From: Clostridia bacterium
GTDB taxonomy: Bacteria > Bacillota > Clostridia > Christensenellales > Borkfalkiaceae
Assembly: GCA_017456055.1 (NCBI GenBank)
Contig: JAFTKC010000006.1
Location: 124,001 to 188,000 of the forward strand
Length of the DNA stretch: 64,000 bases
Direction: 5' to 3'
The position numbers and the translations under genes were made by a program. Shown here piece by piece: positions 7,003 through 24,078 of the stretch (positions are counted from its first letter, which is position 1; the number at the start of each line of letters is the position of its first letter). Below the pieces are notes generated by a model, which was not told the origin of the DNA, made no database searches, and saw only the letters and a program-made list of their open reading frames with translations.

Positions 7003-8429
7003 TTAGTTTTCATCCTTTTTTTATTAAAATTGTTTAAACTTTTTGGTCTATATTCGTGTTCAATGAAAAATCCCTTATAAATACTATCTTTTAGGTCTTT
7101 TGTGATAAGTGGAGAAAATGGAGCGCAAAGTGGGGTGTTGTAAGTTTCAAAGGAAGTTATATAGATTAAGATTAAGAGCGCTGAGCAAATAAGACCGTAA
7201 GCCCCGATAGAGCCTGCGATTATCAAGAATAAAAATCTTAAAACCGAAAAGGTTTGCACTAACTCTGGAACGGTGTATAAACATATTCCTGAAAATGCAA
7301 CTATCATAAGAGTTGGGGCGGAAATTATACCTGCGCTAACTGCCGTTTCCCCTAAAACTAGACCGCCTACGATAGAAACGACCATACCCACGTATCTAGG
7401 CATACGAATACTCGCTTCGTTTAGTATTTCAAAGATTAAAAGTGTAAAAAACATTTCATAACTTGGCGAAAGGGGTATTCCTTTAATGCTGTTTTCTATG
7501 GTCAGTAGAAAGGCAAAAGGTATAAATTGCAAGTGAAAAAGTTCGCTTGCAACGAAAAAGGCGGGCGTAAAAAGGGATAGCATAACCGAAATAGCCCTAA
7601 TTATTCTAGATATCGTAGCGCTATAAGAGGAAGCGTAATAATCGGACGGGCTTTGAAAGTCCTCAATTAGTAGGTAGGGAACAGTGAGCGCAATGGGCGA
7701 GCCGTCTACAAAAACGGCAACTCTACCTTCTAAAATTTTAGCGGCTAAAATATCTGGTTTTTCGGTATTTCCAACCTGCTTAAAAATAGAACGTCTATGT
7801 TCGCCTAAAAACTTAGAAACGTAAGAAGAATCTAAAACGGCGTCGATATTTATTGCTTGTAGTTTTTTCTTTAAGGTTTCAACGAGATTTTTATCGGCAA
7901 TTCCATCAATATAGCAGATGGATACGGCTGTGTCGCTAAATCTTCCAGCCCTAAGGTTAATAAATTTTAGGTCGGGAGAGCAAATTTTTCTTCTCATCAT
8001 TGAAATATTTACGGGCAAACTTTCCACAAACCCTTCTCTTGGCCCTTTTATAACCGTAGAAGTAGGTGGCTCCATAATGGAGCGTTTTTCAAACTTTTTT
8101 AATCCAAAAGAAAAGGCGCTTTCTAGTCCGTCAACTAGCAAAACGCTGTTTCCGGTGACTACTTCTTCAACTATTTTTTCAATTTCTTCCACCTGTTTTT
8201 GCTCTGCGCACAAAAACACTTGCGAAAGAGAAGATAAATCAATTTGCTCTAACGCTTTTAGTGGTTTTAGAACTTCTTGGGAAAGTGCGTTTTTGTCGGC
8301 AATCTCGCCTGCAAAAATCAATGATCCCTTATTTTTCCCAACGTCAACGTCTAAAAAGATAATATCGTCTGACGCTAAAATCTCTTTTATTTTAGTTAGG
8401 TTTTCGTCTAAATTTTTTGATAAATTCAT
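6999..8429 (-). CDS. gerAA: GerAA-type spore germination protein
   Basis: A subunit of the germinant receptor. The soluble N-terminal region (about residues 1-260) contains the family hallmark VIKGPREGFVESLPVNISMM, followed by a membrane region with five to six helices and a short cytoplasmic tail. I start at the ATG at 8429 rather than the in-frame GTG at 8504, because the GTG lies inside the terminator stem of the preceding gene. No Shine-Dalgarno sequence is visible before 8429, and a SigG-like promoter abuts the ATG, so the message may be leaderless or nearly so. Confidence 0.88.
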   Translation of the reverse strand: MNLSKNLDENLTKIKEILASDDIIFLDVDVGKNKGSLIFAGEIADKNALSQEVLKPLKALEQIDLSSLSQVFLCAEQKQVEEIEKIVEEVVTGNSVLLVDGLESAFSFGLKKFEKRSIMEPPTSTVIKGPREGFVESLPVNISMMRRKICSPDLKFINLRAGRFSDTAVSICYIDGIADKNLVETLKKKLQAINIDAVLDSSYVSKFLGEHRRSIFKQVGNTEKPDILAAKILEGRVAVFVDGSPIALTVPYLLIEDFQSPSDYYASSYSATISRIIRAISVMLSLFTPAFFVASELFHLQFIPFAFLLTIENSIKGIPLSPSYEMFFTLLIFEILNEASIRMPRYVGMVVSIVGGLVLGETAVSAGIISAPTLMIVAFSGICLYTVPELVQTFSVLRFLFLIIAGSIGAYGLICSALLILIYITSFETYNTPLCAPFSPLITKDLKDSIYKGFFIEHEYRPKSLNNFNKKRMKTK

Positions 8430-8434
8430 ATTTT

Positions 8435-8464
8435 TAGTATTTAGAAAATAAAGGAAAATATACT
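8435..8464 (-). promoter_or_regulatory. Candidate SigG-type promoter for the gerA operon
   Basis: On the minus strand AGTATA (8464-8459) is followed after 17 bases by AATACTA (8441-8435). The forespore SigG consensus is TGMATA, 17-18 bases, CATACTA. The -10 element ends 5 bases before the gerAA ATG. Germinant receptor operons of Bacillus are known SigG targets. The match is partial, so the call is tentative. Confidence 0.45.
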
Positions 8465-8483
8465 CTTTTGTTTTTTGACAAAA

Positions 8484-8513
8484 AAAAGGAGCGTGGAAAA
8501 CCACGCTCCTTTT
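8484..8513 (-). terminator. Terminator of the 8518-9048 gene
   Basis: A perfect 13-bp stem (8484-8496 with 8501-8513) with an AAAA loop, followed on the minus strand by a run of T residues. It separates the membrane protein gene from the gerA operon. Confidence 0.85.
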
Positions 8514-8517
8514 AAAG

Positions 8518-9048
8518 TTATTTAAAGTTTTTGGTTGAATCGATTATTAGTTCTGTCAAGGCGGTTATTTGCTCTAAATCACACGGTCTAGAAAGATTGT
8601 CGTTAATATAAGCGCAAAGTTCATCCTTAACAAAATCTTTTTTATTTACGATTATAAGTATTTCACCTGCGACGTCGCTTTTTTTGTCATCTGAAATGTA
8701 ATCTTCGATAAGGGTTTCTATTAAGAGAATCTTAGAATCTTGCTTAATTGATTTTCCACTCGCTATTTTCTTAATCAAAGAATATACGGCTAGTGAACCC
8801 GAATAACTAATAAAAGCCGAAGTAATAGACTTTATGCTAAAACTTTCTAAACTCTTAAAGTATATTAGGGTGAAAACCAATTCAAACAAAACTGCGAAAA
8901 TAATTTCAAAATACGAGATGGTAATTCTACTTAATTTTTCCCCGCAATATTTTCTTAAAATTAACCTTAGTATACAAATTAAAATCATAGAAATTATTGC
9001 GTGAATCCCAAAATCCTTGTAAATACTTTCAAAAAAAGAATAATCCAT
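8518..9048 (-). CDS. Membrane protein of unknown function
   Basis: I do not recognise this 176-residue protein. It shows three hydrophobic helices (about residues 14-32, 44-64 and 72-92) and a soluble C-terminal half of about 80 residues predicted to face the cytoplasm, ending in a helix rich in Leu and Ile. AGAGGTG precedes the ATG. It lies upstream of a germinant receptor operon, from which a strong terminator separates it, and is divergent from sigK. That setting makes a sporulation-stage membrane role possible; this is guilt by location only. Confidence 0.6.
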   Translation of the reverse strand: MDYSFFESIYKDFGIHAIISMILICILRLILRKYCGEKLSRITISYFEIIFAVLFELVFTLIYFKSLESFSIKSITSAFISYSGSLAVYSLIKKIASGKSIKQDSKILLIETLIEDYISDDKKSDVAGEILIIVNKKDFVKDELCAYINDNLSRPCDLEQITALTELIIDSTKNFK

Positions 9049-9320
9049 AATTCACCTCTTTTTTATAAAAGGGGGAATATATAATTTCACCTTCTTTTTT
9101 GTATTTCACGGCTAAGCCTATCGAAAAAACGATAACGGTTTATATAATAATAGGTTTTAATTTTTTAGCCCCCCTTTTTTTGTTTTCCAAACGCTAGACG
9201 TATTATAAAAAACAAAATAAAAAAGTAAACTCCTTTATGACAAAAAATAGGATAGATTATTTAAATTTTTCCGTTATAAATAAAACTTCCTTTTCATAGG
9301 TTATAGAAAAAGGAGGGAAA

Positions 9321-10019
9321 ATGATGTTTTTTGAATTTTTATCATTTATTTTAGGGAAAATCGTATTTTTCACGGGGAGCGTTCTATCTAAAAATTCTTT
9401 TCTAAAGCCCCTTTCTCAAGAAGAAGAGGAAGAGTGTATCGATAGGCTAGAAAAAGGTGATATGGAAGCGAGAGAAAAACTAATAAACCACAATATGCGC
9501 CTAGTTGCACATATCGTAAAAAAGTATGCGGGAGCAGGCGAAACGGATGATTTGATTTCCATAGGAAGCATAGGGTTAATAAAAGCGATAAACACCTATA
9601 AAAAAGATAAGGGAACAAAACTTGCAACCTATACTGCAAGGTGTATAGAAAACGAAATATTGATGATGCTTCGCCATCAAAAAAAGTTTAGTAAAGACAT
9701 ATATTTATCAGACCCCGTAGGAAGCGACAACGAGGGCAACGAATTAACCCTTATGGATTTACTCTACGCAGAGGAAGACGCAGTATTTTTAGAGGTGGAT
9801 AAAAGTATTGAAAGAGAACGTCTAATTACATTTTTAAGAGAAAATTTAACTAAGAGAGAGTACGTAGTTATATGCCTAAGATTCGGGCTAAAAGACGAGC
9901 GAAACTACGCGCAACGAGAAGTGGCTAAACTTTTAAAAATATCTCGCTCCTACGTTTCGAGAATAGAAAAAAAAGCCGTAGAAAAATTAAAAATTGCCGT
10001 AAAAAAAGAACGTTTTTAA
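9321..10019 (+). CDS. sigK: RNA polymerase sigma factor SigK (pro-form)
   Basis: Late mother-cell sporulation sigma factor. Region 2 contains HNMRLVAHIVKKY and KGTKLATYTARCIENEILM, followed by KDIYLSDPVGSDNEGNELTL. These fit SigK better than SigE (for example the AHIVKK and the Asp-Pro-Val/Ile-Gly block). Region 4 ends with the helix-turn-helix text SRSYVSRIEKKAVEKL. The N-terminus is a hydrophobic stretch of about 25 residues before LKPLSQEEE, as in pro-SigK, which is cleaved by an intramembrane protease. The gene is intact, with no skin-like insertion. AAGGAGGG precedes the ATG. CATAGGTTA at 9295-9303 resembles a mother-cell -10 element but sits very near the start. Confidence 0.87.
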   Translation: MMFFEFLSFILGKIVFFTGSVLSKNSFLKPLSQEEEEECIDRLEKGDMEAREKLINHNMRLVAHIVKKYAGAGETDDLISIGSIGLIKAINTYKKDKGTKLATYTARCIENEILMMLRHQKKFSKDIYLSDPVGSDNEGNELTLMDLLYAEEDAVFLEVDKSIERERLITFLRENLTKREYVVICLRFGLKDERNYAQREVAKLLKISRSYVSRIEKKAVEKLKIAVKKERF

Positions 10020-10068
10020 TTGATTATACCTTTTAAATATGTTATTATAAATAAAAGGGGAAAAACAA

Positions 10069-10311
10069 ATGGAAAAAAAGATAGCCGTAGTTGCCGTAAT
10101 TGTCAGTAAAAGCGAAAGCGTAGCAAAAGTAAACCAAATATTTCACGATTTTAGCGACTACGTTTTAGGTAGGCTTGGAATTCCATACAAGGAAAAGGGC
10201 GTAAACGTAATTAGCATAGTTTTAGACGCGCCGAGTGAAATTTTAAATAGTCTATCAGGGAAACTTGGTATGGTAGACGGAGTGACGAGTAAGGTTATGA
10301 TAACCAAATGA
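10069..10311 (+). CDS. TM1266 family putative iron-only hydrogenase system regulator
   Basis: Small 80-residue cytoplasmic protein with the ferredoxin-like ACT/NikR C-terminal fold. The pattern VAVIVSKSESVAKVNQIFHDF, then LGRLGIPYKEKGVNVISIVLDAP, and a final GMVDGVTSKVMITK are characteristic of the TM1266 group, often next to [FeFe]-hydrogenase maturation genes. No hydrogenase or maturase lies in this window. Its stop overlaps the start of the next gene by 4 bases (ATGA), so the two are translationally coupled. Confidence 0.78.
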   Translation: MEKKIAVVAVIVSKSESVAKVNQIFHDFSDYVLGRLGIPYKEKGVNVISIVLDAPSEILNSLSGKLGMVDGVTSKVMITK

Positions 10312-11096
10312 TAGCGTATACTTTTATAAGTGGCGCTACGGGTGGAATAGGCAAAGCCTTTTCAAAAGAGTGCGTAAAAAAAGGATATAATCTTTTTTTG
10401 ACGGGAAGAAGTCAAGAAAAACTCGAACGCTTAAAATTAGAATTATTAAAAATAAATAACGTAGAAATAGATTATTTTGCTTGCGATATTGCTAGCCCTG
10501 ACGATAGAAGCAAAATGCTTGAATATATAGATAAAAAAGGCTATCTATTCGATAGAATAATCAACGTTGCGGGCGTAGATATTCAAAAGCCGTTTTTAGA
10601 GTATACTAGAGAAAAAATTCTATTTCAAACTAGAGTAAACGTAGAAGCGACTATAGACTTAACGTACGCTCTTTTAAATAAAAGGGCTCTAGGGCTTGAA
10701 GTTTTAACCATTTCGAGTATGTCTGGCGTTTCGCCTATGCCAAACTTTGCGCTTTATTCGGCAACTAAAAGTTTACTAACAAACTTATTCACGGCGCTTC
10801 ACTATGAACTTAAAAAAGATAAGATTAAGGTGACGGTAGTTTTGCCTGGTGGAGTGTACACGAGAGAAGATATTATAGAAGATATTAAAGGGCAAGGAAT
10901 TTGGGGTAAACTTTCGGCAAAAACTCCAGAATTCGTGGCGAGAAAGTCGCTGAAAGCATTAAGTAAAAACAAGGTAAAATATATTCCTGGGTTTTTTAAT
11001 AAATTACTTAATTTTTTAATGAAAATAGCGCCAAAAAAGTTAGTGCTTAATTTTATAGAGAAAAGATGGCGTAATAATAGAAAAGATGCCTTTTAA
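10308..11096 (+). CDS. Short-chain dehydrogenase/reductase (SDR)
   Basis: NAD(P)-dependent oxidoreductase with a Rossmann fold. The glycine motif GATGGIGKAF is near residue 10, NVAG replaces the usual NNAG, and the catalytic Ser and YxxxK appear as SSMSG and YSATK. The C-terminal region carries basic and hydrophobic segments after about residue 225 (FNKLLNFLMKIAPKKLVL), typical of SDRs that act on lipid or long-chain substrates and associate with membranes. The substrate is unknown. It is coupled to the TM1266-like gene upstream and followed 22 bases later by thyA. Confidence 0.82.
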   Translation: MIAYTFISGATGGIGKAFSKECVKKGYNLFLTGRSQEKLERLKLELLKINNVEIDYFACDIASPDDRSKMLEYIDKKGYLFDRIINVAGVDIQKPFLEYTREKILFQTRVNVEATIDLTYALLNKRALGLEVLTISSMSGVSPMPNFALYSATKSLLTNLFTALHYELKKDKIKVTVVLPGGVYTREDIIEDIKGQGIWGKLSAKTPEFVARKSLKALSKNKVKYIPGFFNKLLNFLMKIAPKKLVLNFIEKRWRNNRKDAF

Positions 11097-13871: not shown

Positions 13872-14888
13872 ATGATAAAAAGGAAATTCTTAAAAAGATT
13901 AGTTGTTATTCTTTTGAGCATAATTTTGGGTTTAGGCGTGATTTTAGGTGGTGCAATAGCCTACTTTCGTTTGCCTGTAAGTGCATACTACAAGGCAAGT
14001 GAAAAGGCGTTTATTATTCCCGACATAAAAAACGGGTACGTTCCACAAGGTATTCACTTCGACGAGGATAAGGAATTTTTTATCCTTTCGGGTTATTGGA
14101 ACGATCACTCGCCCTCGCCAATATATTTATTAGATAAAAAGGGCATAACCTTAAAGAAAGTGTTTTTAACCATATCTGGCGAGAAGTACGACGGGCACGG
14201 TGGTGGAGTTGCCGTTGCCAACGGATACCTTTATCTTGCAGGGGGAGAAAATGGTTGCATTTACGTTTTTTCTTATGAAGATTTGCTTTCTGTAGAGAGT
14301 GGAAATAGCATTGAAAGCGTTGGTAAAATAGACCTTTATCAATCTAAAAACGATTATTTGGGAGTTTCTTTTATAACGGTAAAAGGCGATAGGCTTATAA
14401 CTGGAGAATTTTATAGAGAAGGAAATTATCCCACCCTAGAAAGTCATAAAATTACAACGAAGTCAGGGGATTATAACCAAGCAATCGCTTTAGAGTATAA
14501 ACTTAACGTAGAATCGCCGTTCGGCGTAGAGCAAAAGCCGATAAAGGCATACTCCATGCCAAATCAAGTGCAAGGCTTGGCGATAAACGACGGAAAAATT
14601 TATCTTTCTACTTCGTGGGGCGTAAGTTTTTCCCGCCTTTACGAATATGATGAAGAGAATTTAGAATATCAAGGCGAGATAAATATTTTAGGAAAAACTT
14701 TGCCTTTATATTCTATGGATTCAAGCAGTTTAGTAAAAGAATATAAACTTCCGCCAATGAGCGAAGAGATTGTGTTTATAAACGATAAATTATACGTTTC
14801 TTGCGAATCGGCAAGTAGTAAATATTTATTTGGAAGATTAACGGGCGGAAAGTGGATATATAAAACCGATTTAACTAAAATAAAGTAA
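13872..14888 (+). CDS. Secreted or membrane-anchored beta-rich protein of unknown function
   Basis: 338 residues. The N-terminus has a basic start (MIKRKFLKR) and a hydrophobic helix of about 25 residues that could be a signal peptide or membrane anchor. The rest is rich in beta strands with repeating Gly/Tyr/Leu turns (for example GYLYLAGGENGCIYVFSYE and GLAINDGKIYLSTSWG), consistent with a beta-propeller. It has no catalytic motif I recognise. It is the last gene before a strong terminator, in the thyA-folA-MATE unit. Confidence 0.65.
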   Translation: MIKRKFLKRLVVILLSIILGLGVILGGAIAYFRLPVSAYYKASEKAFIIPDIKNGYVPQGIHFDEDKEFFILSGYWNDHSPSPIYLLDKKGITLKKVFLTISGEKYDGHGGGVAVANGYLYLAGGENGCIYVFSYEDLLSVESGNSIESVGKIDLYQSKNDYLGVSFITVKGDRLITGEFYREGNYPTLESHKITTKSGDYNQAIALEYKLNVESPFGVEQKPIKAYSMPNQVQGLAINDGKIYLSTSWGVSFSRLYEYDEENLEYQGEINILGKTLPLYSMDSSSLVKEYKLPPMSEEIVFINDKLYVSCESASSKYLFGRLTGGKWIYKTDLTKIK

Positions 14889-14911
14889 AAAAATTAAATA
14901 AAAATTGATTG

Positions 14912-14951
14912 CATCCTTACGCAACGATAGTTGCGTAAGGATGTTTTTTTA
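14912..14951 (+). terminator. Terminator before the phage-derived cassette
   Basis: A perfect 14-bp stem (14912-14925 with 14930-14943), a GATA loop and eight T residues. It isolates the cassette that follows from upstream transcription. Confidence 0.9.
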
Positions 14952-15029
14952 TTGTTTTTTTTCAAAAAAACGAAGAAAAAATTTTTTTAGGAAATTTTGT
15001 CATTAACTACTTTTTTATTTTTTTTGAGG

Positions 15030-15038
15030 TGCTATATT
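15030..15038 (+). promoter_or_regulatory. Possible extended -10 promoter of the capsid cassette
   Basis: TGCTATATT is an extended -10 element (TG, one base, TATATT) 30 bases before the terL ATG. No convincing -35 hexamer is present at 16-18 bases upstream; only T-rich sequence is found. I did not find a clear SigE, SigF, SigG or SigK match. Confidence 0.35.
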
Positions 15039-15068: not shown

Positions 15069-16502
15069 ATGGAAGATATTATCGTTAAAATTTTAAGTAT
15101 TGAAATAGAACTTGAAAAGAGAAAAAAACAAAATAAACTTTTAGAGTATAACGTGGGGGAAAGAGTTCATAAAAAACAAATAGAATTTCACAAAAACCCA
15201 AAGAAAAACAGGTGGGTGTTCGGTGGAAATAGAAGTGGAAAAACCGAGTGTGGCGCTGTAGAGTGTATTTATATGGCGCTTGGTATTCACCCGTATAGAG
15301 AAAATAGAAAAAAGGTTTTCGGGTGGGTGGTTTCGCTTTCTACCCAAGTACAACGTGACGTTGCGCAGAAAAAAATTCTCTATTATCTACCAAAAGATAG
15401 CATAGTGGATATAACTATGCTTTCGGGGAAAAAAGACAATCCCGAGTCGGGGGTAATAGACCAAATTTTCGTTAAAAACGCCTTTGGTGAGATTTCTATA
15501 ATAGGCTTTAAGTCGTGCGATCAAGGAAGAGAAAAATTTCAAGGAAGTTCTCTGGATTTCGTGTGGTTCGACGAAGAGCCACCAAAAGATATTTACGACG
15601 AGTGCAAGATGCGTGTTTTAGATAAAGACGGAGATATTTTCGGCACGATGACGCCACTTAAAGGGCTTACTTTTATATACGACGAAATTTATCTAAACTT
15701 AAACCAATCGAAAAACGTTTGGTACGAGTTTATGGAGTGGATGGATAATCCTTTTCTAGATAAAAAGGTGTTAGAAGAACTATCAACGAGTTTGTCTAGC
15801 GACCAACTAGAATCGAGAAGATACGGAAGATTTAAGCAAAACGAGGGGTTAGTTTATCCTGAGTTTGACGAGAATATTCACGTTATCGACCCCTTTCCAA
15901 TACCGAGCGAGTGGCAAGATATTCTATCTATTGACCCAGGACTTAACAATCCTTTGTCTTGCCATTGGTACGCCGTAGACTACGACAACGTAGTGTACGT
16001 CGTGGCAGAACATTTTGAAGCCAAAAAGGACGTTGCCTATCACGCTCAAAAAATAAAAGAAATTAGCGACACTCTTAATTGGAAAAAGAATAAGAACGGC
16101 TGTATAGAGGCTTTAATAGACCCTGCGGCAAATCAAAAGACGTTATCTTCTATAAAGAGCGTTAGCGAACTTTTTTACGAACACCAAATTGCAGTAAACC
16201 CATCGGTTAATAAGGATATGTTTTCAGGAATCTCAAGGGTTAGAGAATACCTAAAAGTAATTGACGGCAAAAGTAGAATTTACATTTTTAGAAACTGCGT
16301 TAACTTAATTAGAGAACTCAAAAGTTATTGGTGGGGAGAGGGCGATAGACCTAAAAAGACGGACGACCATGCGCTCGACGAACTTAGATATTATCTTATG
16401 AGAAAGCCGGAAAATACACCTAAAAAGCCTCAAAAAACGCTTATTCAAAAGGACAAGGAAAGATTGTTTAGGAAGATATTAAATGAAAGAAGACGACGTT
16501 AA
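15069..16502 (+). CDS. terL: Phage terminase large subunit
   Basis: Motor and nuclease that packages DNA into a procapsid through the portal. The N-terminal ATPase has Walker A GGNRSGKT at residues 52-59 and Walker B DFVWFDEEP at about 165-173. The C-terminal RNase H-like nuclease keeps three acidic positions: D289 in SIDPG, D351 in LIDPA and D437 in HALDELRY. At 477 residues it has a normal length, so both activities appear intact. The Shine-Dalgarno sequence is weak. It is the first gene of the cassette; the next gene overlaps its end by 20 bases. Confidence 0.92.
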   Translation: MEDIIVKILSIEIELEKRKKQNKLLEYNVGERVHKKQIEFHKNPKKNRWVFGGNRSGKTECGAVECIYMALGIHPYRENRKKVFGWVVSLSTQVQRDVAQKKILYYLPKDSIVDITMLSGKKDNPESGVIDQIFVKNAFGEISIIGFKSCDQGREKFQGSSLDFVWFDEEPPKDIYDECKMRVLDKDGDIFGTMTPLKGLTFIYDEIYLNLNQSKNVWYEFMEWMDNPFLDKKVLEELSTSLSSDQLESRRYGRFKQNEGLVYPEFDENIHVIDPFPIPSEWQDILSIDPGLNNPLSCHWYAVDYDNVVYVVAEHFEAKKDVAYHAQKIKEISDTLNWKKNKNGCIEALIDPAANQKTLSSIKSVSELFYEHQIAVNPSVNKDMFSGISRVREYLKVIDGKSRIYIFRNCVNLIRELKSYWWGEGDRPKKTDDHALDELRYYLMRKPENTPKKPQKTLIQKDKERLFRKILNERRRR

Positions 16503-16818
16503 AAAGGCTAAAAAAGCACTTATAAAAAGAGCGCTAGGATACGATGCTAAAGAAACCGTTGAAGAGTACGTCAAAGGAGAGGACGGAATAATATTAACCA
16601 AGAAAAAGGTGACTAAAAAGCCCGTTCCACCAGACGTTTCCGCCCTAAAGGTGCTACTTGAATTAGAGCCTGATAAGGCGATATCTAATATGAGTGAAGA
16701 AGAACTCGTTTTGGAAAGAGAAAGGCTTCTTAGAGAGTTAAGCCAAGCGCAAGAAAAGGAGGAAAAAATTTGCAAGAAGAAAAGCAAAAAGAACGAGAAA
16801 AGTTCTATGAAGAAGTAG
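16483..16818 (+). CDS. Small charged protein next to the terminase, unknown function
   Basis: 111 residues, very rich in Lys and Glu, predicted helical, with a highly basic C-terminal tail. The segment KKPVPPDVSALKVLLELEPD resembles the PPD-x-A-x-x-x-x-L stretch seen in some phage small-terminase-like or DNA-packaging helper proteins, so it may be the DNA-recognition partner of TerL; this is weak evidence and there is no clear helix-turn-helix. It overlaps terL by 20 bases and the portal gene by 49. Confidence 0.55.
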   Translation: MKEDDVKKAKKALIKRALGYDAKETVEEYVKGEDGIILTKKKVTKKPVPPDVSALKVLLELEPDKAISNMSEEELVLERERLLRELSQAQEKEEKICKKKSKKNEKSSMKK

Positions 16819-18602
16819 TTGAGGAAGTCACCCTAGACTTTAAGACTAGGCAGGAAAGGAGATTAGAGCAAGAAAGACAATGGGAGTTAAACGTTAATTT
16901 TCTAAACGGCAACCAATATTGTCAAATCAACTCTAAAGGGGAACTTTATGAGAAAGATGCAGGCGAATATTATTGGCAACAAAGGGGAGTTTACAACCAC
17001 TTAGCGCCAATAATGGAAACGAGACTATCAAAACTTTCTAGAATTTCACCAACCATTAGAGTAAGACCGAAAACGGACGACGATACCGACGTTTTAGGCG
17101 CAGATTTAGGGGCTAAAGCCATAGAGGGATTGTTCGACCAAATCAACGTAAAAGATATAGTTAAAAAGGTGACCTTGTGGAGTGAAAGTTGCGGAACGGG
17201 TTTTTATAAAATCGTTTGGGATAACGATGCGGGCGGGGACGTCGGCGTTGTTAACGGCAAGTCCATTAAGCAAGGCGACGTGAGAATTTATCCCGTTTCA
17301 CCTTTTGAAATATTTCCAGACGACCTATCTAAAGAAAATCTTGAAGATTGCTTTAGCATTATTCACGCAAGAAGTATATCGGTTAGAGAAATTAAGGAAA
17401 AATACGGAGTGGACGTAGAGCCTGAATCGGTGGAAGAATTCTCTCTTAAAGTTTCTAAAAACTATAGAAAAGCAGAAGAGAAAAAAGACTCGGTTATCGT
17501 TATGGAAAAATACGAAAAATCAACTGAAAAATATCCTAACGGCAGACTTATTACCGTGGCGGGTGGAAAGGTTTTATACTATGGAGAATTGCCCTATAAA
17601 AACGGGGAGGACGGAAAGAGAAGTTTTCCGTTCGTAAAGCAAGTTAGCATAAACGTTGGGGGAAGTTTCTTTGGACAATCGGTTATTGAAAGACTAATAC
17701 CAATTCAAAGAGCGTATAACGCCGTAAAAAATAGAAAGCACGAATTTATCAATAGGTTGTCTACGGGAATTATGATGGTGGAAGACGGATCTCTAGATAT
17801 AGACGATTTAGAGCAAGACGGATTGCCACCGGGAAAAGTTTTAGTGTATAGACAAGGTGGCGAAAAACCAGAGATGATGCAAGGGTTTAACGTTCCAACT
17901 GAGTTTAACGACGAAGAGGAAAAGTTAATTAGTGAATTCGTTATTATTAGTGGAGTGAGCGACGTTGCGTCCTCAACCAAAAACAACTACACCAAGAGTG
18001 GAACGGCGCTAGAAATATTAGTAGAGCAAGATAACGAGCGAATTTTGTCTTCTGCAGAAAACGTTAGAAACGCGTACGTGGAAATTGCGAAAAAAGTTAT
18101 TAGACTTTACGCTCAATTCTTAGCGGGAGTAAAGATGATTCGCTTTAGAGACGACACGGATAAAACTCACGTTTGTTATCTAGATAAAAAGGCTGTCAAT
18201 AGCGACGACGTTTACTTAATGGGTGAAAACGAACTATTAGAGAGCCCTGCAAAGAAAAAGGAAACTCTTCTAGCCCTTTACGAAAAGGGATTATTTAACG
18301 ACGAGGACGGAAGTATTAGAGCCGAAGTAAAGGAAAAACTACTCTCTATTCTAGGCTTTGCCGATCTCGACTATCAAAAGGGAATAAGTAGACTTCAAAC
18401 GGAAAAGGCTCAAAAGGAAAACGTCCTAATTAGAAAAAAGGGCTTGCCTATAGAAATTATCGACGACGATAAAATTCACGTAGAAGAGCACCTTAGATAC
18501 GTATTTAGCGAATACGACGAACTAGAAAAGGAAGAGAAAGAAAGGTTTTTTAGCCATATTGAAGAACATAAAAACAGAAATAAAATAAAAAAGGAAGTAT
18601 AA
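16770..18602 (+). CDS. Phage portal protein
   Basis: Ring-forming portal through which DNA enters the capsid. The 610-residue protein has the family layout: an N-terminal block (FLNGNQYCQIN, then YNHLAPIMETRLSKLSRISP), a central wing with VSPFEIFPDDLSKENLEDC, and a helical stem after about residue 300 (IERLIPIQRAYNAVKNRKHE, then GTALEILVEQDNERI). The start is TTG at 16770 with a strong AAGGAGG at 16757-16763 and good spacing. Sequence style fits portals of P22-like podoviruses and related Firmicutes phages. The protein begins inside the upstream charged-protein gene. Confidence 0.88.
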   Translation: MQEEKQKEREKFYEEVVEEVTLDFKTRQERRLEQERQWELNVNFLNGNQYCQINSKGELYEKDAGEYYWQQRGVYNHLAPIMETRLSKLSRISPTIRVRPKTDDDTDVLGADLGAKAIEGLFDQINVKDIVKKVTLWSESCGTGFYKIVWDNDAGGDVGVVNGKSIKQGDVRIYPVSPFEIFPDDLSKENLEDCFSIIHARSISVREIKEKYGVDVEPESVEEFSLKVSKNYRKAEEKKDSVIVMEKYEKSTEKYPNGRLITVAGGKVLYYGELPYKNGEDGKRSFPFVKQVSINVGGSFFGQSVIERLIPIQRAYNAVKNRKHEFINRLSTGIMMVEDGSLDIDDLEQDGLPPGKVLVYRQGGEKPEMMQGFNVPTEFNDEEEKLISEFVIISGVSDVASSTKNNYTKSGTALEILVEQDNERILSSAENVRNAYVEIAKKVIRLYAQFLAGVKMIRFRDDTDKTHVCYLDKKAVNSDDVYLMGENELLESPAKKKETLLALYEKGLFNDEDGSIRAEVKEKLLSILGFADLDYQKGISRLQTEKAQKENVLIRKKGLPIEIIDDDKIHVEEHLRYVFSEYDELEKEEKERFFSHIEEHKNRNKIKKEV

Positions 18603-18605
18603 ATT

Positions 18606-19022
18606 ATGGAAGAAATTATCAATGAACAAGCCCCTGAAATTCAAACTGCAGAGGCAGAGCAAGTAAAAGTGGAAGATAAAAAGGCCTCATTTGGTAAGTT
18701 TAAGAGTGCCGACGCATTGTTATCCGCTTACAATTCTTTACAAACTGAATTTACCAAACGCTGTCAGCGAATTAAGGAATTAGAAGATAGAATAACTAAA
18801 AGGGAAGTTGAGTCAACTTCTATTTCCACCCCGTCGGCAACGGGTATAACCCAAAAGGAAAAAGAAGATATCCTTAAGGACTACCTTATAGAAATAGTGC
18901 GTGGAAAAAGCGACGCGATAGTAGTTGACTCTCTAGGAACGGGCATAAAAACCCCATACTCAAAGCCGACTTCTATTGCAGAAGCAGGGAAACTTGCAAA
19001 AGAATTACTAAAAAAACAATAA
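18606..19022 (+). CDS. Putative capsid scaffolding protein
   Basis: 138 residues, acidic at the N-terminus with a central helical segment (GKFKSADALLSAYNSLQTEF, then coiled-coil-like KRCQRIKELEDRI), a Ser/Thr-rich linker and a basic C-terminal helix ending KELLKKQ. This pattern, a GKFKS-ALL-AY-LQ-EFT motif just upstream of the major capsid gene, is typical of phage scaffolding proteins that guide procapsid assembly and often leave before maturation. The assignment rests on position and composition. It starts 3 bases after the portal stop and is followed 13 bases later by the capsid gene. Confidence 0.68.
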   Translation: MEEIINEQAPEIQTAEAEQVKVEDKKASFGKFKSADALLSAYNSLQTEFTKRCQRIKELEDRITKREVESTSISTPSATGITQKEKEDILKDYLIEIVRGKSDAIVVDSLGTGIKTPYSKPTSIAEAGKLAKELLKKQ

Positions 19023-19035
19023 TTAAGGAGAAAAA

Positions 19036-20208
19036 ATGGCAGTAAATTTAACTAACGCGGACAGCGCGTTAAAATCATATTATTTAGACGTAGTAAAAGA
19101 CAAATTAAATTATTCGGTAAACCCCTTTTTAGCGGCAATTAAGCACAGCACGGAAGACGTTTACGGAAAGGACGTTAGAAAACTTGCAGTTCATGGATTG
19201 AACGGTGGTATTGGCGCAGGTACGGAAGACGGAAAACTTCCCGCATCTTCTAGCAACAACTACACTCAACTCGTTTCAACTCTTAAAAATATTTACGGCA
19301 CTATTGAAATTAGTGACAAGGCGATTAGAGCGTCGCAAAGTGATACGGGCGCTTTCGTTAGCTTACTAAATGCCGAAATGGAAGGACTTATCAATGCATC
19401 AACCTATAACTTTGGAAGAATGCTTTTTGGCGACGGCACGGGTAAAATAGCAAAAGTTGCTTGCGTAAACCCAGAAGGTGTTCTCGTTGATAGTGTGGAA
19501 AAACTTAAAGTTGGTATGGTGGTGGATTTTTGTACTTTGGAAGGGGAAATTATTCCAGGAGGTGCGTCAAGAAAGATTGCGGATATTGACGTGATTAACT
19601 CTACGTTTAACGTAGTGGGTGAGCCTTTGGCTAATGAAGACATTACCGCTGATTGCATTTTGACTGTACAAGGTTCTTGTAATAACGAAATTACCGGTTT
19701 AGGAGCAATTTTTGGAAACGCAAGTACTCTTTACGGAATTGATAGGGTAGGAAACGATTGGCTTAAGCCTTATAAGGCTCAAGTTAGCGATATCACTGAA
19801 AACGATATTCAAACGGCTCTCGACGAGATTGAAATCGCTTCTGGAAATTCTGTTAACTTTATCGTTTGTTCGTGGGGCGTTCGCCGTGCGTTAATCAAAC
19901 TTCTAAGCGAAAACAGAAGTAATATTCACACTATGGAACTCACGGGTGGCTTTAAGGCTATCAGTTATAACGGTATTCCTATCGTTGCAGATAGATTCTG
20001 CCCTAAGGGAACTATGTATTTACTTAACACCGACGATTTTTCTTTAAACCAACTTTGCGATTGGCAATGGATGGAAGGGGACGACGGTAAGGTATTAAGA
20101 CAAGTTCCTGGTAAACCCGTATATACGGCTACCTTGGTTAAGTACGTTGAACTTATGTGTTCACGTCCTTGTGGTCAAGGTATGATTTCAGGCATTAAAG
20201 AAGCCTAG
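19036..20208 (+). CDS. Phage major capsid protein
   Basis: Predicted HK97-fold shell protein of 390 residues. Recognisable features are NPFLAAIKHSTEDVYGKDVR near the N-terminus, a Gly-rich loop (HGLNGGIGAGTEDG), NFGRMLFGDGTGKIA around residues 118-132, and a C-terminal block that includes SWGVRRALIKLL and RFCPKGTMYLLNTDDF. These are typical of the P22/HK97-related coat proteins of Firmicutes phages. AAGGAG precedes the ATG, a strong translation signal. A terminator hairpin directly follows, so this gene would be the most abundant message end in the cassette. Confidence 0.9.
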   Translation: MAVNLTNADSALKSYYLDVVKDKLNYSVNPFLAAIKHSTEDVYGKDVRKLAVHGLNGGIGAGTEDGKLPASSSNNYTQLVSTLKNIYGTIEISDKAIRASQSDTGAFVSLLNAEMEGLINASTYNFGRMLFGDGTGKIAKVACVNPEGVLVDSVEKLKVGMVVDFCTLEGEIIPGGASRKIADIDVINSTFNVVGEPLANEDITADCILTVQGSCNNEITGLGAIFGNASTLYGIDRVGNDWLKPYKAQVSDITENDIQTALDEIEIASGNSVNFIVCSWGVRRALIKLLSENRSNIHTMELTGGFKAISYNGIPIVADRFCPKGTMYLLNTDDFSLNQLCDWQWMEGDDGKVLRQVPGKPVYTATLVKYVELMCSRPCGQGMISGIKEA

Positions 20209-20222
20209 TGAATAATTTTAAG

Positions 20223-20256
20223 TTTCGCCGAACAAATTTTGTTCGGCGAAATTTTA
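20223..20256 (+). terminator. Internal terminator after the capsid gene
   Basis: Perfect palindrome, 20223-20236 with 20238-20251 (effectively a 12-bp stem with a 5-base loop), followed by TTTTAT. It lies between the capsid gene and the three downstream genes and could raise capsid output relative to them by partial termination or 3-prime end protection. Confidence 0.72.
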
Positions 20257-20269
20257 TAAAAGGAGAAAT

Positions 20270-20827
20270 TTGATGAAGTTAAACGAAATTATTAAAACCA
20301 CGGCAACTCTTCTAGCGAGAGAAGACGTTTGCGACTATCTACATAACCCCGAAAATGAAACGCAAAGGCAAACCTACGAAACGGTTGACCTTCTAACAAG
20401 GCTTGCTAACCTAGTAATTAAAGAACTTGCCGAAGGATTTATATGTATGGTGGACGAGATAAAAGTTAACGATTTTAGCGTTAAGTTTTCTTCGCTAGAT
20501 AAATCTGTTCTCAGCGTTATCGGTGCTTACGATCAAAACGGAAATAAAATAGATTGCACTTTATCTAAGTTCGGCGTTAGTTCTAATTATAGAATAAGCA
20601 CCTTAAAGTATTCTTATATACCTGAAAACTACGGGCTTGAAGATACTATTGGGGAGTTCGAGAAAAAGGTGACGGCAGGCGTTTTATCTTACGGAGTGTG
20701 CGCAGAATATTGCTTGACTCAAGGCAAATTCGACGAGGCTATTATGTGGAATCAAAGATACGTAGATAGCGTGGACCTTCTCGTTAGACCTAAAAATGCA
20801 AACGTGAAGGGCAGGGCTTTTTTATGA
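20270..20827 (+). CDS. Putative head-completion/adaptor protein
   Basis: 185 residues, mostly helical at the N- and C-termini with a beta-rich centre (VNDFSVKFSSLDKSVLSVIG). Position right after the major capsid gene and size fit the adaptor that docks under the portal (gp4 in P22). I see no diagnostic motif, so function is inferred from gene order. AAAGGAG precedes the ATG. The next gene overlaps its stop by 4 bases. Confidence 0.55.
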   Translation: MMKLNEIIKTTATLLAREDVCDYLHNPENETQRQTYETVDLLTRLANLVIKELAEGFICMVDEIKVNDFSVKFSSLDKSVLSVIGAYDQNGNKIDCTLSKFGVSSNYRISTLKYSYIPENYGLEDTIGEFEKKVTAGVLSYGVCAEYCLTQGKFDEAIMWNQRYVDSVDLLVRPKNANVKGRAFL

Positions 20828-22014
20828 AAAGCGTAAGAATTAAAAAGATAGATTTACCACTTTTCGAAAAAAAGGTGAATTTATTCGACGGAGAATCTAA
20901 AAAAAGTGTTTTGAGTGCTAGTAAAATTTCGCCCGTAAACTTTAACGGGTGTATTCCCAAAAGACTTTACTCTTTGTTTGATAGAACCTATTGTTATGCT
21001 GAAGACGGCACTATTTATCAAATGGTAGAAAATGAATTTTTTCAAATAATGGAAAAGTCTTTTTCAAGCGAGCCTAATATTCTTTCCATGAGAAACCGTG
21101 CAGAAGAAACTTTGCTTATCTGCGACAATGAAAAGGGATACTTTCTAAACGACGAAGAAAATTCGTTAAAAGCGACTTATAGCAAAGTTTATTGCCACGC
21201 CTTTGGAAAAATAATATCTGCAAAGGGCAGAAAACTTATCGTGGAGCATAGTTTTAATCTGGTTAGCGATCAATATGAGTTCAAAAAAGAATTTTGTTTT
21301 ACTACCGAGGCGGACGAAGGGGATATAGTTGGAATTTGTCAATACGGAGAAGATATTTTACTTGTTTGTAAGCACAAAATAATTACTTTAAATCTCGTTA
21401 AAAACGCCTTTGGGGCACAAGTGGAGAGAGTTAATACGCCGCATATAAACGCCCTAGAAAATTCATTTAATCTATGTGGTGAAAACGCAATCTTTATTTC
21501 GGGCAACGAAATTGCAGTATACAATAATGGAAATCTCAGTTTTTACCCCTTTTCAAGCAAGGTAAACGAACTAAGTATTTTTGGCGACTGCAAGGAAATT
21601 GACGGAAAGTTTTACTTAATTCCATTTACGGTGGACGGGGAAAAGAGTATGCTTTGCTTTAGCCTAGACACACGTACTTTTTTTGAAATGAAAGGGGAAT
21701 TTAGCGCCCTTTCAAAAAACGGCGGGCTTTTCTATAAGGACGATAACCTTTATAAAATTAGCCAAGTGGCTACGAGTGGTAAACTAGACTTTGATTACCT
21801 AGGCGCAAAAACTCTATATAAAATAGAAATTAAGTGTGAAGGAAGAGCAAGGTTAATAATAGATGGTGATTTTTCTAAAAAGCAATTTGACTTAAAGGCT
21901 GGGCTAAATCAAATTTGTTGTAATTTAACTTCAAGTGAATTTGGATTTTCCTTTGATAACGCTTCTAGTGATTTTTGCATTTTAGAGTCAAAGGTCACCT
22001 ATACAAAAATTTAG
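20824..22014 (+). CDS. Beta-rich protein in the hub-protein position, unknown function
   Basis: 396 residues, no signal peptide or membrane helix. It is dominated by short beta strands with recurring turns (GDCKEIDGKFYLIPF, GGLFYKDDNLYKISQ, GNEIAVYNNGNLSFY), suggesting a beta-propeller followed by a small beta-sandwich (about residues 325-396). In P22-like phages this position holds the hub (gp10) that closes the head. No receptor-binding or enzymatic motif is visible. It is translationally coupled to the adaptor-like gene. Confidence 0.5.
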   Translation: MKSVRIKKIDLPLFEKKVNLFDGESKKSVLSASKISPVNFNGCIPKRLYSLFDRTYCYAEDGTIYQMVENEFFQIMEKSFSSEPNILSMRNRAEETLLICDNEKGYFLNDEENSLKATYSKVYCHAFGKIISAKGRKLIVEHSFNLVSDQYEFKKEFCFTTEADEGDIVGICQYGEDILLVCKHKIITLNLVKNAFGAQVERVNTPHINALENSFNLCGENAIFISGNEIAVYNNGNLSFYPFSSKVNELSIFGDCKEIDGKFYLIPFTVDGEKSMLCFSLDTRTFFEMKGEFSALSKNGGLFYKDDNLYKISQVATSGKLDFDYLGAKTLYKIEIKCEGRARLIIDGDFSKKQFDLKAGLNQICCNLTSSEFGFSFDNASSDFCILESKVTYTKI

Positions 22015-22029
22015 AAAAGGAGAAAAAAC

Positions 22030-22941
22030 ATGGCAATTCCAACATCCAAAGCGGAAATGTACGAGCAGTTAGAAGAGATATATTTAGAGTATAGAAGCAT
22101 AAACCACACGTTCGGCAATATGACGCTTGAACCCTTAAATATAGAGAGAATTGATTACACCCCAAAAACTGAAGAGAACTTATTAGAAGAAGCAAGGGTG
22201 CTCTTGCAACCTTGGTATAACGAAGAGTATGAAAAAAAATTATCTAATCTCGATACTCAATATAGAGTTTACTATATTAAAAAACAAGACCTTCTATCTA
22301 AAGAAACGGCAGAGCACGAAGCGCTTGGACAAAATATTGAAGAACGCACGGCAGACCTAGAAAAAAAGGCTTTAGAGCACGGCTTTGCAAACACTGATCT
22401 CTTTATGGACGCGTATGCAAAAATTACCGCGCAAAGTATTAACGGGCACGCTAAAATCACTTCTAAATACGACGATTTAAGAAAAGAAGTCACTAATAAA
22501 ATGACTGAAATTGAAGAAGAAAAGGCGGGGCTAGAAGAAAAATATCAAAACTATCTTAGTCACAAGATAAGCGCTAAAATAGTGGAACTTAGAGAGGAAG
22601 ATAAAAACCATACCATTGAAGTTTTGAAATACAACAATGGAGTAGAAGAGAAACTTCAAAGAAGTATAAATACTAATATTTCGTCAAATGCGTCGCTTAA
22701 ATTAAAGTTTATGGAAATAACTTCCGAAGGGTTTTCTAAAGACGACTTAATTCAAAGGGGTTATTACAAAAAAATAATTAATTGCGTATGTGACTTTTAC
22801 ACTTATAACTTTGGTACTTACGGAGCGGCGTACACGGATATACTAAACGAGCACAACCTTATGATTTACCTTGAAGACTACTACGTGGACGTTCTTGAAC
22901 TTTTAAGAATGAGAGCGCATACCGAAGAGGAAGCGATATAA
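22030..22941 (+). CDS. Coiled-coil protein ending the cassette, unknown function
   Basis: 303 residues, strongly helical and charged. A long coiled coil is likely from about residue 75 to 200, with heptad-like Leu/Ile spacing (for example EEKAGLEEKYQNYLSHKI). The C-terminal 80 residues are a more compact helical part rich in Tyr and aromatic residues. In P22-like gene order this slot holds the tail needle, also a coiled coil, but no sequence motif supports that identity. AAAAGGAG precedes the ATG. It is the last gene before the closing terminator. Confidence 0.55.
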   Translation: MAIPTSKAEMYEQLEEIYLEYRSINHTFGNMTLEPLNIERIDYTPKTEENLLEEARVLLQPWYNEEYEKKLSNLDTQYRVYYIKKQDLLSKETAEHEALGQNIEERTADLEKKALEHGFANTDLFMDAYAKITAQSINGHAKITSKYDDLRKEVTNKMTEIEEEKAGLEEKYQNYLSHKISAKIVELREEDKNHTIEVLKYNNGVEEKLQRSINTNISSNASLKLKFMEITSEGFSKDDLIQRGYYKKIINCVCDFYTYNFGTYGAAYTDILNEHNLMIYLEDYYVDVLELLRMRAHTEEEAI

Positions 22942-22944
22942 AAT

Positions 22945-22974
22945 AAAAAGCGACTTTAATACGGTCGCTTTTTT
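22945..22974 (+). terminator. Terminator closing the capsid cassette
   Basis: Stem 22945-22954 with 22964-22973 (AAAAAGCGAC with GTCGCTTTTT) followed by T residues. It separates the cassette from ispG. Confidence 0.85.
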
Positions 22975-22988
22975 AATTTAAACTAGAC

Positions 22989-23017
22989 TTTACAAATTAG
23001 ATTAAATGTGGTAAAAT
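22989..23017 (+). promoter_or_regulatory. SigA-type promoter for ispG
   Basis: TTTACA at 22989-22994 and TAAAAT at 23012-23017 with 17 bases between; TGTGG directly before the -10 matches the TRTGn extension of Bacillus promoters. The downstream ATG is 21 bases away. Confidence 0.75.
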
Positions 23018-23037
23018 TCTATATTAGGGAGTTAAAA

Positions 23038-24078
23038 ATGTCAAAAAGAGTTAAAATCGGTAATATTTACGTTGGTGGTGGGGAAAAGATTGCTATTCAA
23101 TCTATGTCTACCTATAAATTAGAAAATATTGAAGAGTGCATAAAAGAAGCCGTTCTTTTGGAAAAGAAGGGCTGTGATATTATGCGCTATTCGGTGCTAG
23201 ACGCTCTTGACGCTAAGAGTTTTAGCCAACTTAAAAAACATACTAAAATGCCACTCGTTGCCGATATTCACTTTGATTATAAACTAGCGCTTTTATCCAT
23301 TGACGGCGGGACGGATAAAATTAGAATAAATCCAGGAAATATCGGCTCGGAGCAAAAAGTTAGCGAAGTTGCTAGGGCAATCAAGCAAAATGGAGTTGCC
23401 GTTAGAGTTGGCTCTAATACCGGAAGTATTGACAAAGAGTTTTTAGATAAATATGGAAAAAACGAAATTTCACTAGGTGAAAGCGCGTTAAAGAACGTTG
23501 CTATTTTAGAAAAACAAGGCGTGGAAAATATCGTGGTTTCAGTAAAAGCATCTAGCGTTCCACTAATGATAAAGGCGTACGAATATTTAAGCGAAAGGAT
23601 AGAGTATCCACTTCATTTAGGGGTGACTGAAGCGGGCACGGAATACGTTGGAATTATAAAAAATTCTATCGGTATTGGCAGTTTACTCTCTAAAGGAATC
23701 GGCGATACGATTAGAGTTAGTTTATCTGCTGAGCCTATAAGAGAAGTAAAATGCGCCAAAGCCATCTTGCGTTCGCTAGGGCTAATAGAAGAGGGAGCAG
23801 AGATAATTGCTTGTCCAACTTGCGGAAGATGCGAGTGGGCTTGTATGGATATGGCTAAAAAGGTGGAAGAGTATCTAGACGGCGTAGATAAACCCTTAAA
23901 GATAGCCGTTATGGGTTGTGTGGTTAACGGACCTGGCGAAGCAAAGGACGCAGACCTTGGCGTTGCCGGTGGAAAGGATAAATGCGTAATATTTAAAAAG
24001 GGCGAAATTATAAAGAACGTAGATAAAAAGGACGTAGAACTTGAATTTTTCAAGGAGATTGATAAATGTATTCGTTAA
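23038..24078 (+). CDS. ispG: 4-hydroxy-3-methylbut-2-enyl-diphosphate synthase IspG
   Basis: Penultimate enzyme of the MEP isoprenoid pathway, a [4Fe-4S] reductase. Iron-sulfur ligands are visible as C259 and C262 in CPTCGRCEW, C294 in GCVVNGPGE and the following E301. The N-terminal TIM-barrel block is KIAIQSMSTYKLENIEECIKE. The ATG at 23038 with AGGGAG upstream is preferred over the in-frame GTG at 23008, which overlaps the -10 region. In Clostridia ispG typically precedes polC and rimP, as here. It overlaps the next gene by 13 bases. Confidence 0.95.
   Translation: MSKRVKIGNIYVGGGEKIAIQSMSTYKLENIEECIKEAVLLEKKGCDIMRYSVLDALDAKSFSQLKKHTKMPLVADIHFDYKLALLSIDGGTDKIRINPGNIGSEQKVSEVARAIKQNGVAVRVGSNTGSIDKEFLDKYGKNEISLGESALKNVAILEKQGVENIVVSVKASSVPLMIKAYEYLSERIEYPLHLGVTEAGTEYVGIIKNSIGIGSLLSKGIGDTIRVSLSAEPIREVKCAKAILRSLGLIEEGAEIIACPTCGRCEWACMDMAKKVEEYLDGVDKPLKIAVMGCVVNGPGEAKDADLGVAGGKDKCVIFKKGEIIKNVDKKDVELEFFKEIDKCIR

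Follow-up and report, generated by a model that had tools for sequence, protein, structure and literature searches.

A podovirus-type structural and packaging operon in a Clostridia genome probably belongs to a host-domesticated gene transfer agent-like system

An eight-gene operon between host genes

The window analysed here is a 64,000-nucleotide stretch of a Clostridia bacterium genome (contig C2:124001-188000; genome of 1.39 Mb, 94% complete, 26 contigs). At positions 15069-22941 it carries eight intact, co-directional open reading frames (ORFs) on the plus strand, flanked on both sides by host genes. We propose, with a probability of about three in four, that this operon supplies the structural and packaging genes of a podovirus-type system resembling a gene transfer agent (GTA), domesticated by the host and for the most part vertically inherited; on our best reading the system is closest in kind to FpGTA of Faecalibacterium. 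This proposal is made because the gene set is fixed in its lineage, largely vertical in descent and under purifying selection, because it combines a conserved terminase motor and nuclease with a reduced small terminase (TerS) and a probable short-tail machine, and because no genes for self-propagation stand beside it. The features of the locus are:

14911..14944, plus strand: intrinsic terminator of the upstream host gene, a 15-pair stem with T tail found by the terminator scanner
14999..15038, plus strand: promoter-like element GTCATWW-N5-TTK-N17-GNTANAWT upstream of terL, a conserved motif
15069..16502, plus strand: terL, terminase large subunit, with ATPase motor and headful nuclease (Terminase_6N/6C, invariant motifs)
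16483..16818, plus strand: terS-like gene, 111 amino acids (aa) (matches the C-terminal part of the phage TerS profile)
16770..18602, plus strand: portal protein, TTG start as listed (P22_portal, phrog_156)
18606..19022, plus strand: scaffold-like protein, 138 aa (position between portal and capsid gene)
19036..20208, plus strand: major capsid protein (MCP), podovirus/SU10 type (phrog_14242, NF033394)
20270..20827, plus strand: probable portal-tail adaptor, 185 aa (position)
20824..22014, plus strand: probable tail nozzle, 396 aa, P22 gp10-like beta-propeller with C-terminal beta domain (predicted fold)
22030..22941, plus strand: DUF7934 helical-hairpin virion protein, 303 aa, possibly an ejection or needle-like component (DUF7934 match, model)
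22945..22975 (about), plus strand: downstream intrinsic terminator, seen by eye

The original prediction, made from the letters of the window, had described intact terL, portal, scaffold-like, MCP and further genes in unbroken frames and in a P22-like order, with host-like composition, a terminator on either side and ispG as a flank, and on all of these points it was correct. The downstream terminator is not listed by the scanner because its 9-base loop exceeds the scanner's limit. The G+C content (GC) of the block, 0.35-0.40, is similar to that of its surroundings, and its direct neighbors are a gene at 13872-14888 upstream and ispG (23008-24078; GcpE domain, 4.1e-133) downstream. In the gene list no integrase, regulator, replication or lysis gene is linked to the structural genes; domain scans covered the module, ispG and gene 13872-14888, and no integrase scan was made of the remaining genome. 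We thus find eight phage-derived genes with no self-replication or integration genes among them and host genes on both sides.

A conserved terminase, a reduced TerS-like protein and a probable short tail

TerL matches Terminase_6N (2.6e-15) and Terminase_6C (3.7e-7). Across 19 sequences from 10 families the Walker A motif GGNR(S/T)GKT, the Walker B motif VWFDEE and the acidic residues D289, D351, D433 and D437 are invariant; as in terminases generally, these four aspartates are presumably nuclease residues. The 111-aa TerS-like protein matches phrog_309 at E 0.0031, and 29 of 30 members do so at E <= 0.1 (best 4.4e-8). In the two members for which the region was displayed, the match is confined to the C-terminal part of the 319-position profile (198-243 and 199-241), while the 194-aa TerS of a phage relative covers positions 123-286 of the same profile. 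Direct alignment of the TerS-like protein to this phage TerS with hhalign was weak and spanned 22 columns. A TerS with no detectable DNA-binding domain is a trait of known GTAs, according to a passage in a recent review (PMC11841831).

The portal matches P22_portal (7.6e-22) and phrog_156 (1.6e-43), and the MCP matches the PHROG major head protein phrog_14242 (1.6e-57) and NCBIfam capsid_maj_Podo NF033394 (264 bits, cut-off 80). The 138-aa protein, for which no convincing family match was found, is called a putative scaffold because of its conserved position between portal and MCP in relatives. Position likewise makes the 185-aa protein a probable portal-tail adaptor, and one ortholog shows a sub-threshold SU10_adaptor match (E 0.019). 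The 396-aa protein is probably a short-tail nozzle: its model, built from 45 related sequences, reaches a pLDDT of 87, and every one of the 22 best Foldseek hits in the PDB is a phage tail or virion chain, with those of Pa223, P22 and VP1 in the lead (best E 1.4e-12). General beta-propellers ranked alongside in a second fold comparison, in which only phage tail proteins aligned over about 360-375 residues. A P22-type portal and, by predicted fold, a gp10-type nozzle are therefore both present, as in a P22-like podovirus virion.

The 303-aa protein matches DUF7934 (3.1e-7, 30.4 bits, cut-off 30) and is modelled as a long helical hairpin. Because hhalign shows homology to a protein that a phage-like relative encodes in the corresponding region (98.2%, 4.1e-14), it is of virion origin, which allows Pfam DUF7934 (PF25588) to be annotated as a helical virion protein derived from a phage or GTA. 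Nozzle and helical protein together suggest that the particle is probably short-tailed and not a bare head. The prediction that exactly the parts for building and filling a head remain thus held for the retained head and packaging genes and fell short where the tail is concerned. In four genomes of the family labelled f28 the DUF7934 protein is cut to about 100 aa next to full-length neighbors (L067:8115-8408, L068:8090-8386, L069:11566-11877, L377:3550-3852), and the operon of another f28 genome, G388, holds two tandem MCP genes (L070:8038-9204 and 9222-10364), possibly for a mixed or altered shell.

The module is widespread in the order

Relatives among the best 80 of more than 500 genome-collection matches were mostly 'Clostridia bacterium' metagenome-assembled genomes from animal guts; named ones in this set were Candidatus Borkfalkia stercoripullorum, Candidatus Coproplasma stercoripullorum and Christensenella sp. 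UBA1259. In the NCBI taxonomy Borkfalkia belongs to Christensenellales and Coproplasma to Eubacteriales incertae sedis, and from the names of these related records we take the order to be Christensenellales. TerL was found in 43 of the 44 genomes of the genus and in 287 of 301 genomes of the family (167 of the 173 good-quality ones), representing 17 of its 18 genera. In the order, strong TerL matches (about 1e-60 or better) were present in 176 of 297 genomes, namely in 23/23 of the own family and 153/274 outside it, and as read by eye they fall in 18 of the 33 sampled families. Another 58 matches were weak, and these are probably other terminases. The MCP was strong in 151 of the 274 genomes outside the own family, and 148 of these had both proteins. 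A search at class level found the MCP in 26 of 391 genomes, of which 12 lie beyond the order. The listed strong TerL hits are 58-77% identical and usually occupy one place per genome.

The recurrence of gene order is more than chance would give: among 20 chosen loci from 20 other genomes the order TerL-portal-scaffold-MCP was kept in all (20/20). TerS had another position in L045 and L052, and the last genes were not recognised in every locus. These 20 loci and the 24 tree genomes used below were picked by us for long contigs and spread. In a set of 107 loci, which combines 27 stretches that we chose with the 80 best matches from the genome collection and is biased to good hits, TerL was full length in 101 of 102 loci with a hit, the MCP in 91/91 and the portal in 93 of 102, with seven portals cut by a contig end and two short.

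The top named phages are only 26-30% identical in TerL and 25-29% in the MCP. The nearest phage-like record, an IMG/VR entry behind L171/L223, reaches 53% and 38%, respectively, with the same gene order, and carries in addition a replication initiator, a tail protein and the 194-aa TerS, located upstream of TerL. Many short contigs with the present operon were noted in IMG/VR (L124-L169), some of them beside an SSB-like host gene, c8 and c9 (see below). Host loci of this operon are thus counted as viruses in a viral-contig collection, and users of viral databases should be aware of this.

Inheritance and selection

A tree of concatenated TerL, portal and MCP shares 11 of 21 splits with the InfB tree of the same 24 genomes, while 2000 shuffles gave at most 3. 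Six of nine well-supported splits are common to both, and among splits with support >=95 there was zero conflict. Mantel correlations were 0.47 and 0.69. Over the 20 loci the GC content at third codon positions (GC3) of the module tracks that of the neighboring genes from 0.24 to 0.81 (r=0.96). The original prediction had asked for the same genes at the same place in relatives, for a complete prophage just outside or elsewhere using these genes and for signs of relaxed selection. The module lies upstream of ispG in four loci of the genus and in one locus of a near genus. This flank is common to the genus and that one near genus only; elsewhere the module sits at other chromosomal places. No second copy of TerL was found in the source genome.

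The ratio of nonsynonymous to synonymous substitution rates (dN/dS) was calculated for loci with a TerS hit, from pairs with dS 0.1-1.2 and each sequence used once; the ratios are rough because dS is moderately high. Medians were 0.147 for TerL (18 pairs), 0.175 for the portal (20), 0.173 for the MCP (27), 0.226 for TerS (24), 0.292 for the scaffold (24) and 0.306 for the adaptor (9), and ratios of 0.191 and 0.205 were obtained for the nozzle (2 pairs) and the helical DUF7934 protein (1 pair). All are well below 1, the medians named first spanning 0.15-0.31, and the highest single value was 0.556. Host thyA, nusA and ispG gave 0.064-0.121 (one or two pairs each). The module is under purifying selection, less tightly than the host genes. 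Taken together, a phage-derived cluster for head, packaging and tail is fixed in the lineage and largely vertically inherited, with losses and some broken copies.

Split operons and losses

In six f28 genomes of 0.8-1.2 Mb (G405, G350, G370, G419, G431, G443) TerL lies 38-103 kb away from the MCP on the same contig, while it is adjacent in other f28 genomes. The genes from TerS to the nozzle stay together in these six, with two lysis-type genes behind them; DUF7934 is shortened to about 100 aa in four and was not recognised in two. Why genomes near 1 Mb keep the module is a question that these findings raise. In genus g192 of family f76, which is outside the order, three of five genomes have TerL (7.2e-195 or better) on a contig other than that of the scaffold-MCP-c10 cluster. 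The g192 loci (L056-L059, L362-L364) probably represent a second split GTA-like system. Two g192 genomes (L060, L066) hold a second, more diverged TerL-portal-scaffold-MCP set, which may be a real prophage.

The f28 genome G327, reported as 100% complete, has neither TerL nor MCP. With unlisted matches counted as absent, TerL, MCP and the small gene c8 are all missing in G327, in two g67 genomes of f6 and in three g33 genomes of f16.

A candidate regulator and lysis genes

The promoter-like element is present exactly in the window and with <=1 mismatch in 13 of 28 upstream regions of terL in the genus (0 expected in Markov controls), the motif having been defined on the same genus sequences on which it was scored; it occurs in 4 of 112 other upstream regions. 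Two genes precede TerL in many genera. One, c8, is small and has sub-threshold matches to sigma-region-4 and helix-turn-helix (HTH) families; the other, c9, is divergent, and its secreted, membrane-anchored product matches SH3 weakly. In the source genome c8 (C2:61562-62032) and c9 stand together 77 kb upstream of the module. We found c8 in 13/13 genomes chosen for long contigs and spread. In the 274 order genomes outside the own family (f1, whose 23 genomes were excluded), the module is present in 118 of 120 genomes with c8, and c8 is absent from 116 of 118 genomes that have no module; this table was hand-transcribed, with strong TerL/MCP at about E <= 1e-60 and c8 at about E <= 1e-9, and its counts are not independent because the genomes are related. 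It is conceivable that c8 acts on the promoter-like element. At L117, c8 is flanked by two proteins that by eye are secreted and membrane-anchored (6758-9214, 818 aa; 10056-10784, 242 aa), the smaller of which stays beside TerL or c8 in many families. In other families the operon ends with a holin gene (2.9e-10) and another gene of lysis type.

From these parts the following course may be pictured. A promoter with the conserved box would drive the operon, probably under an HTH-like protein encoded elsewhere, and by homology the MCP and scaffold would form a small procapsid around the portal. TerL would then pump DNA by headful packaging. Since the TerS-like protein has no N-terminal DNA-recognition part, packaging might start without choice of sequence, so that host DNA would be packed. 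Adaptor and gp10-like nozzle would, to judge by their position and fold, close the head into a short-tailed particle, and its release would need lysis genes such as those at the operon end in other families, which may be missing or replaced in the own family.

Comparison with known systems

Few GTA gene clusters are known outside the Alphaproteobacteria. The GTA of Rhodobacter capsulatus (RcGTA) is siphovirus-like; unlike it, the module described here is P22-like with a probable short-tail nozzle. Portal, MCP and nozzle families and the gene order are alike in P22-like and SU10-like podoviruses, phages of the Arthrobacter phage Jasmine type and the IMG/VR record (L171/L223). Unlike in those phages, replication, lysogeny and tailspike genes were not recognised at the module locus. 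With RcGTA and other GTAs, as outlined in the review cited above (PMC11841831), the module shares a host-owned structural cluster, a TerS with no detectable DNA-binding domain and accessory genes located elsewhere.

FpGTA, the nearest described system, forms particles of about 40 nm with about 9 kb of DNA; according to its authors it is the first GTA from the human gut and also the first of podovirus-like type (Borodovich et al. 2026, PMC12946183). As described in parts of that paper, an operon of about 10 kb carries a TerS in which no DNA-binding domain is obvious, together with TerL, portal, scaffold, MCP and other genes resembling those of phages, and replication genes are missing; the present system is alike in these respects, belongs to the same class, Clostridia, and is most likely podovirus-like as well. 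FpGTA differs in that its TerS is upstream of TerL and in having another operon, which encodes fibre, receptor-binding, holin and endolysin proteins, according to the same account. In our system TerS follows TerL, the HTH-like gene is unlinked and the module is spread over 18 of the 33 sampled families. GTA-like packaging of host DNA was also seen in genera of Christensenellaceae, in 3 of 25 events, in a passage of that paper (PMC12946183) that names no gene cluster for them; if our reading is true, it would put genes on offer for this packaging.

We consider it an even bet that the system is in fact an ancient podovirus-type GTA that predates many families of the order and is also present in one or more genera placed elsewhere, that it is a near-core trait of these gut bacteria kept even in the 0.8-1.2 Mb genomes with split operons and has a dedicated trans-acting HTH-type activator, and that it is the source of the Christensenellaceae packaging in human stool. 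Capsid-borne DNA exchange would then count among the basic traits of a large gut lineage, most of which is uncultured.

Evidence against a GTA-like system and alternative explanations

Several observations weigh against the GTA-like reading. No tailspike or receptor-binding protein was recognised in the operon (unlinked candidates were not searched), and lysis genes were not found in 15 genomes of family f1 (best 2.8e-4). The HTH assignment of c8 comes from sub-threshold matches (E 0.015), and of the 156 module carriers outside the family 38 have a weak c8 or none; within the family it is weak in genus g7. Strong TerL is lacking in 15 of the 33 sampled families, and of the 287 TerL matches in the family 19 were judged by eye to be partial (weaker than 1e-160), some of these at contig ends. 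The TerL-only tree shares 8 splits and disagrees with the host tree, with support, around one pair within the family; for the concatenated module the Mantel correlation is modest (0.469; best of 9999 permutations 0.462).

Moreover, some copies are broken. Four extra loci were chosen because their listed TerL matches in two pieces looked damaged: G002 and G007 have TerL in two frames, and in G007 the junction of scaffold and MCP is damaged as well. In G049 about 8 kb of other sequence takes the place of the part that runs from the TerL C-terminus through most of the MCP. Since some genomes hold broken copies, the module is dispensable in places; other genera carry it at other sites in the chromosome. 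The G049 insert (L376:1578-9791) encodes a C-5 cytosine methylase, a Thoeris ThsA macro protein and two ThsB TIR genes, a defence island within a GTA-like locus; G092 shows a pair of partial matches resembling G049. Because lysis genes were not found in its own family, the system is known here from its genes and FpGTA was compared by description, we do not file it as a proven GTA.

PBSX of Bacillus subtilis is contractile-tailed. It is a domesticated particle that holds host DNA and acts as a tailocin-like killer, according to the discussion in PMC12946183, and it resembles the present system as a domesticated particle in a Gram-positive bacterium. An equivalent use here, packing host DNA or killing neighbors with no delivery of usable DNA, is unlikely in our view. 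It would fit an operon in which no receptor-binding protein was recognised and a particle known to us as genes, and the FpGTA authors allow for this possibility in their own system (PMC12946183). A pure killer, however, would not need the TerL motor and nuclease, which are invariant here, and no contractile or fibre gene was seen in the operon.

We regard it as very unlikely that a live phage or a capsid-forming phage satellite uses the locus as its structural module. The IMG/VR relative (L171/L223), which shares the gene order and has a replication initiator as well as a longer TerS, and the two f76 genomes with a second, more diverged set would be in line with such an element; the source genome has one TerL match and no mobility gene at the locus, the module tree largely follows the host, and the same downstream host gene is found in the genus loci compared.

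Slightly less credible again is a decaying cryptic prophage that happens to keep its head genes. Integrase, replication and lysis genes are not beside the locus, a subset of phage genes is left, and G007, G002 and G049 hold broken copies. Yet the same genes recur across 18 families with dN/dS of 0.15-0.31, the frames are intact here and in nearly all loci examined, the TerL active sites are invariant, and the parts are kept where TerL has split off. As a general account, decay was rejected on the dN/dS values and the broad retention, and with tree agreement and GC3 on the same side, domestication instead of decay, as originally proposed, has strong support.

Capsid proteins can be reused as shells, as in encapsulins, and a protein compartment or other non-DNA use is the least probable explanation, as portal, terminase and nozzle are kept alongside under purifying selection.

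Neighboring genes

No tRNA was found in the 64-kb window. Named by eye, MATE, thyA, folA, polC-like, rimP, nusA and infB genes are among the flanking host genes. Further upstream, also by eye, a gene for a sporulation-type sigma factor (9321-10019) is located near a spore-germination-like gene (6999-8504).

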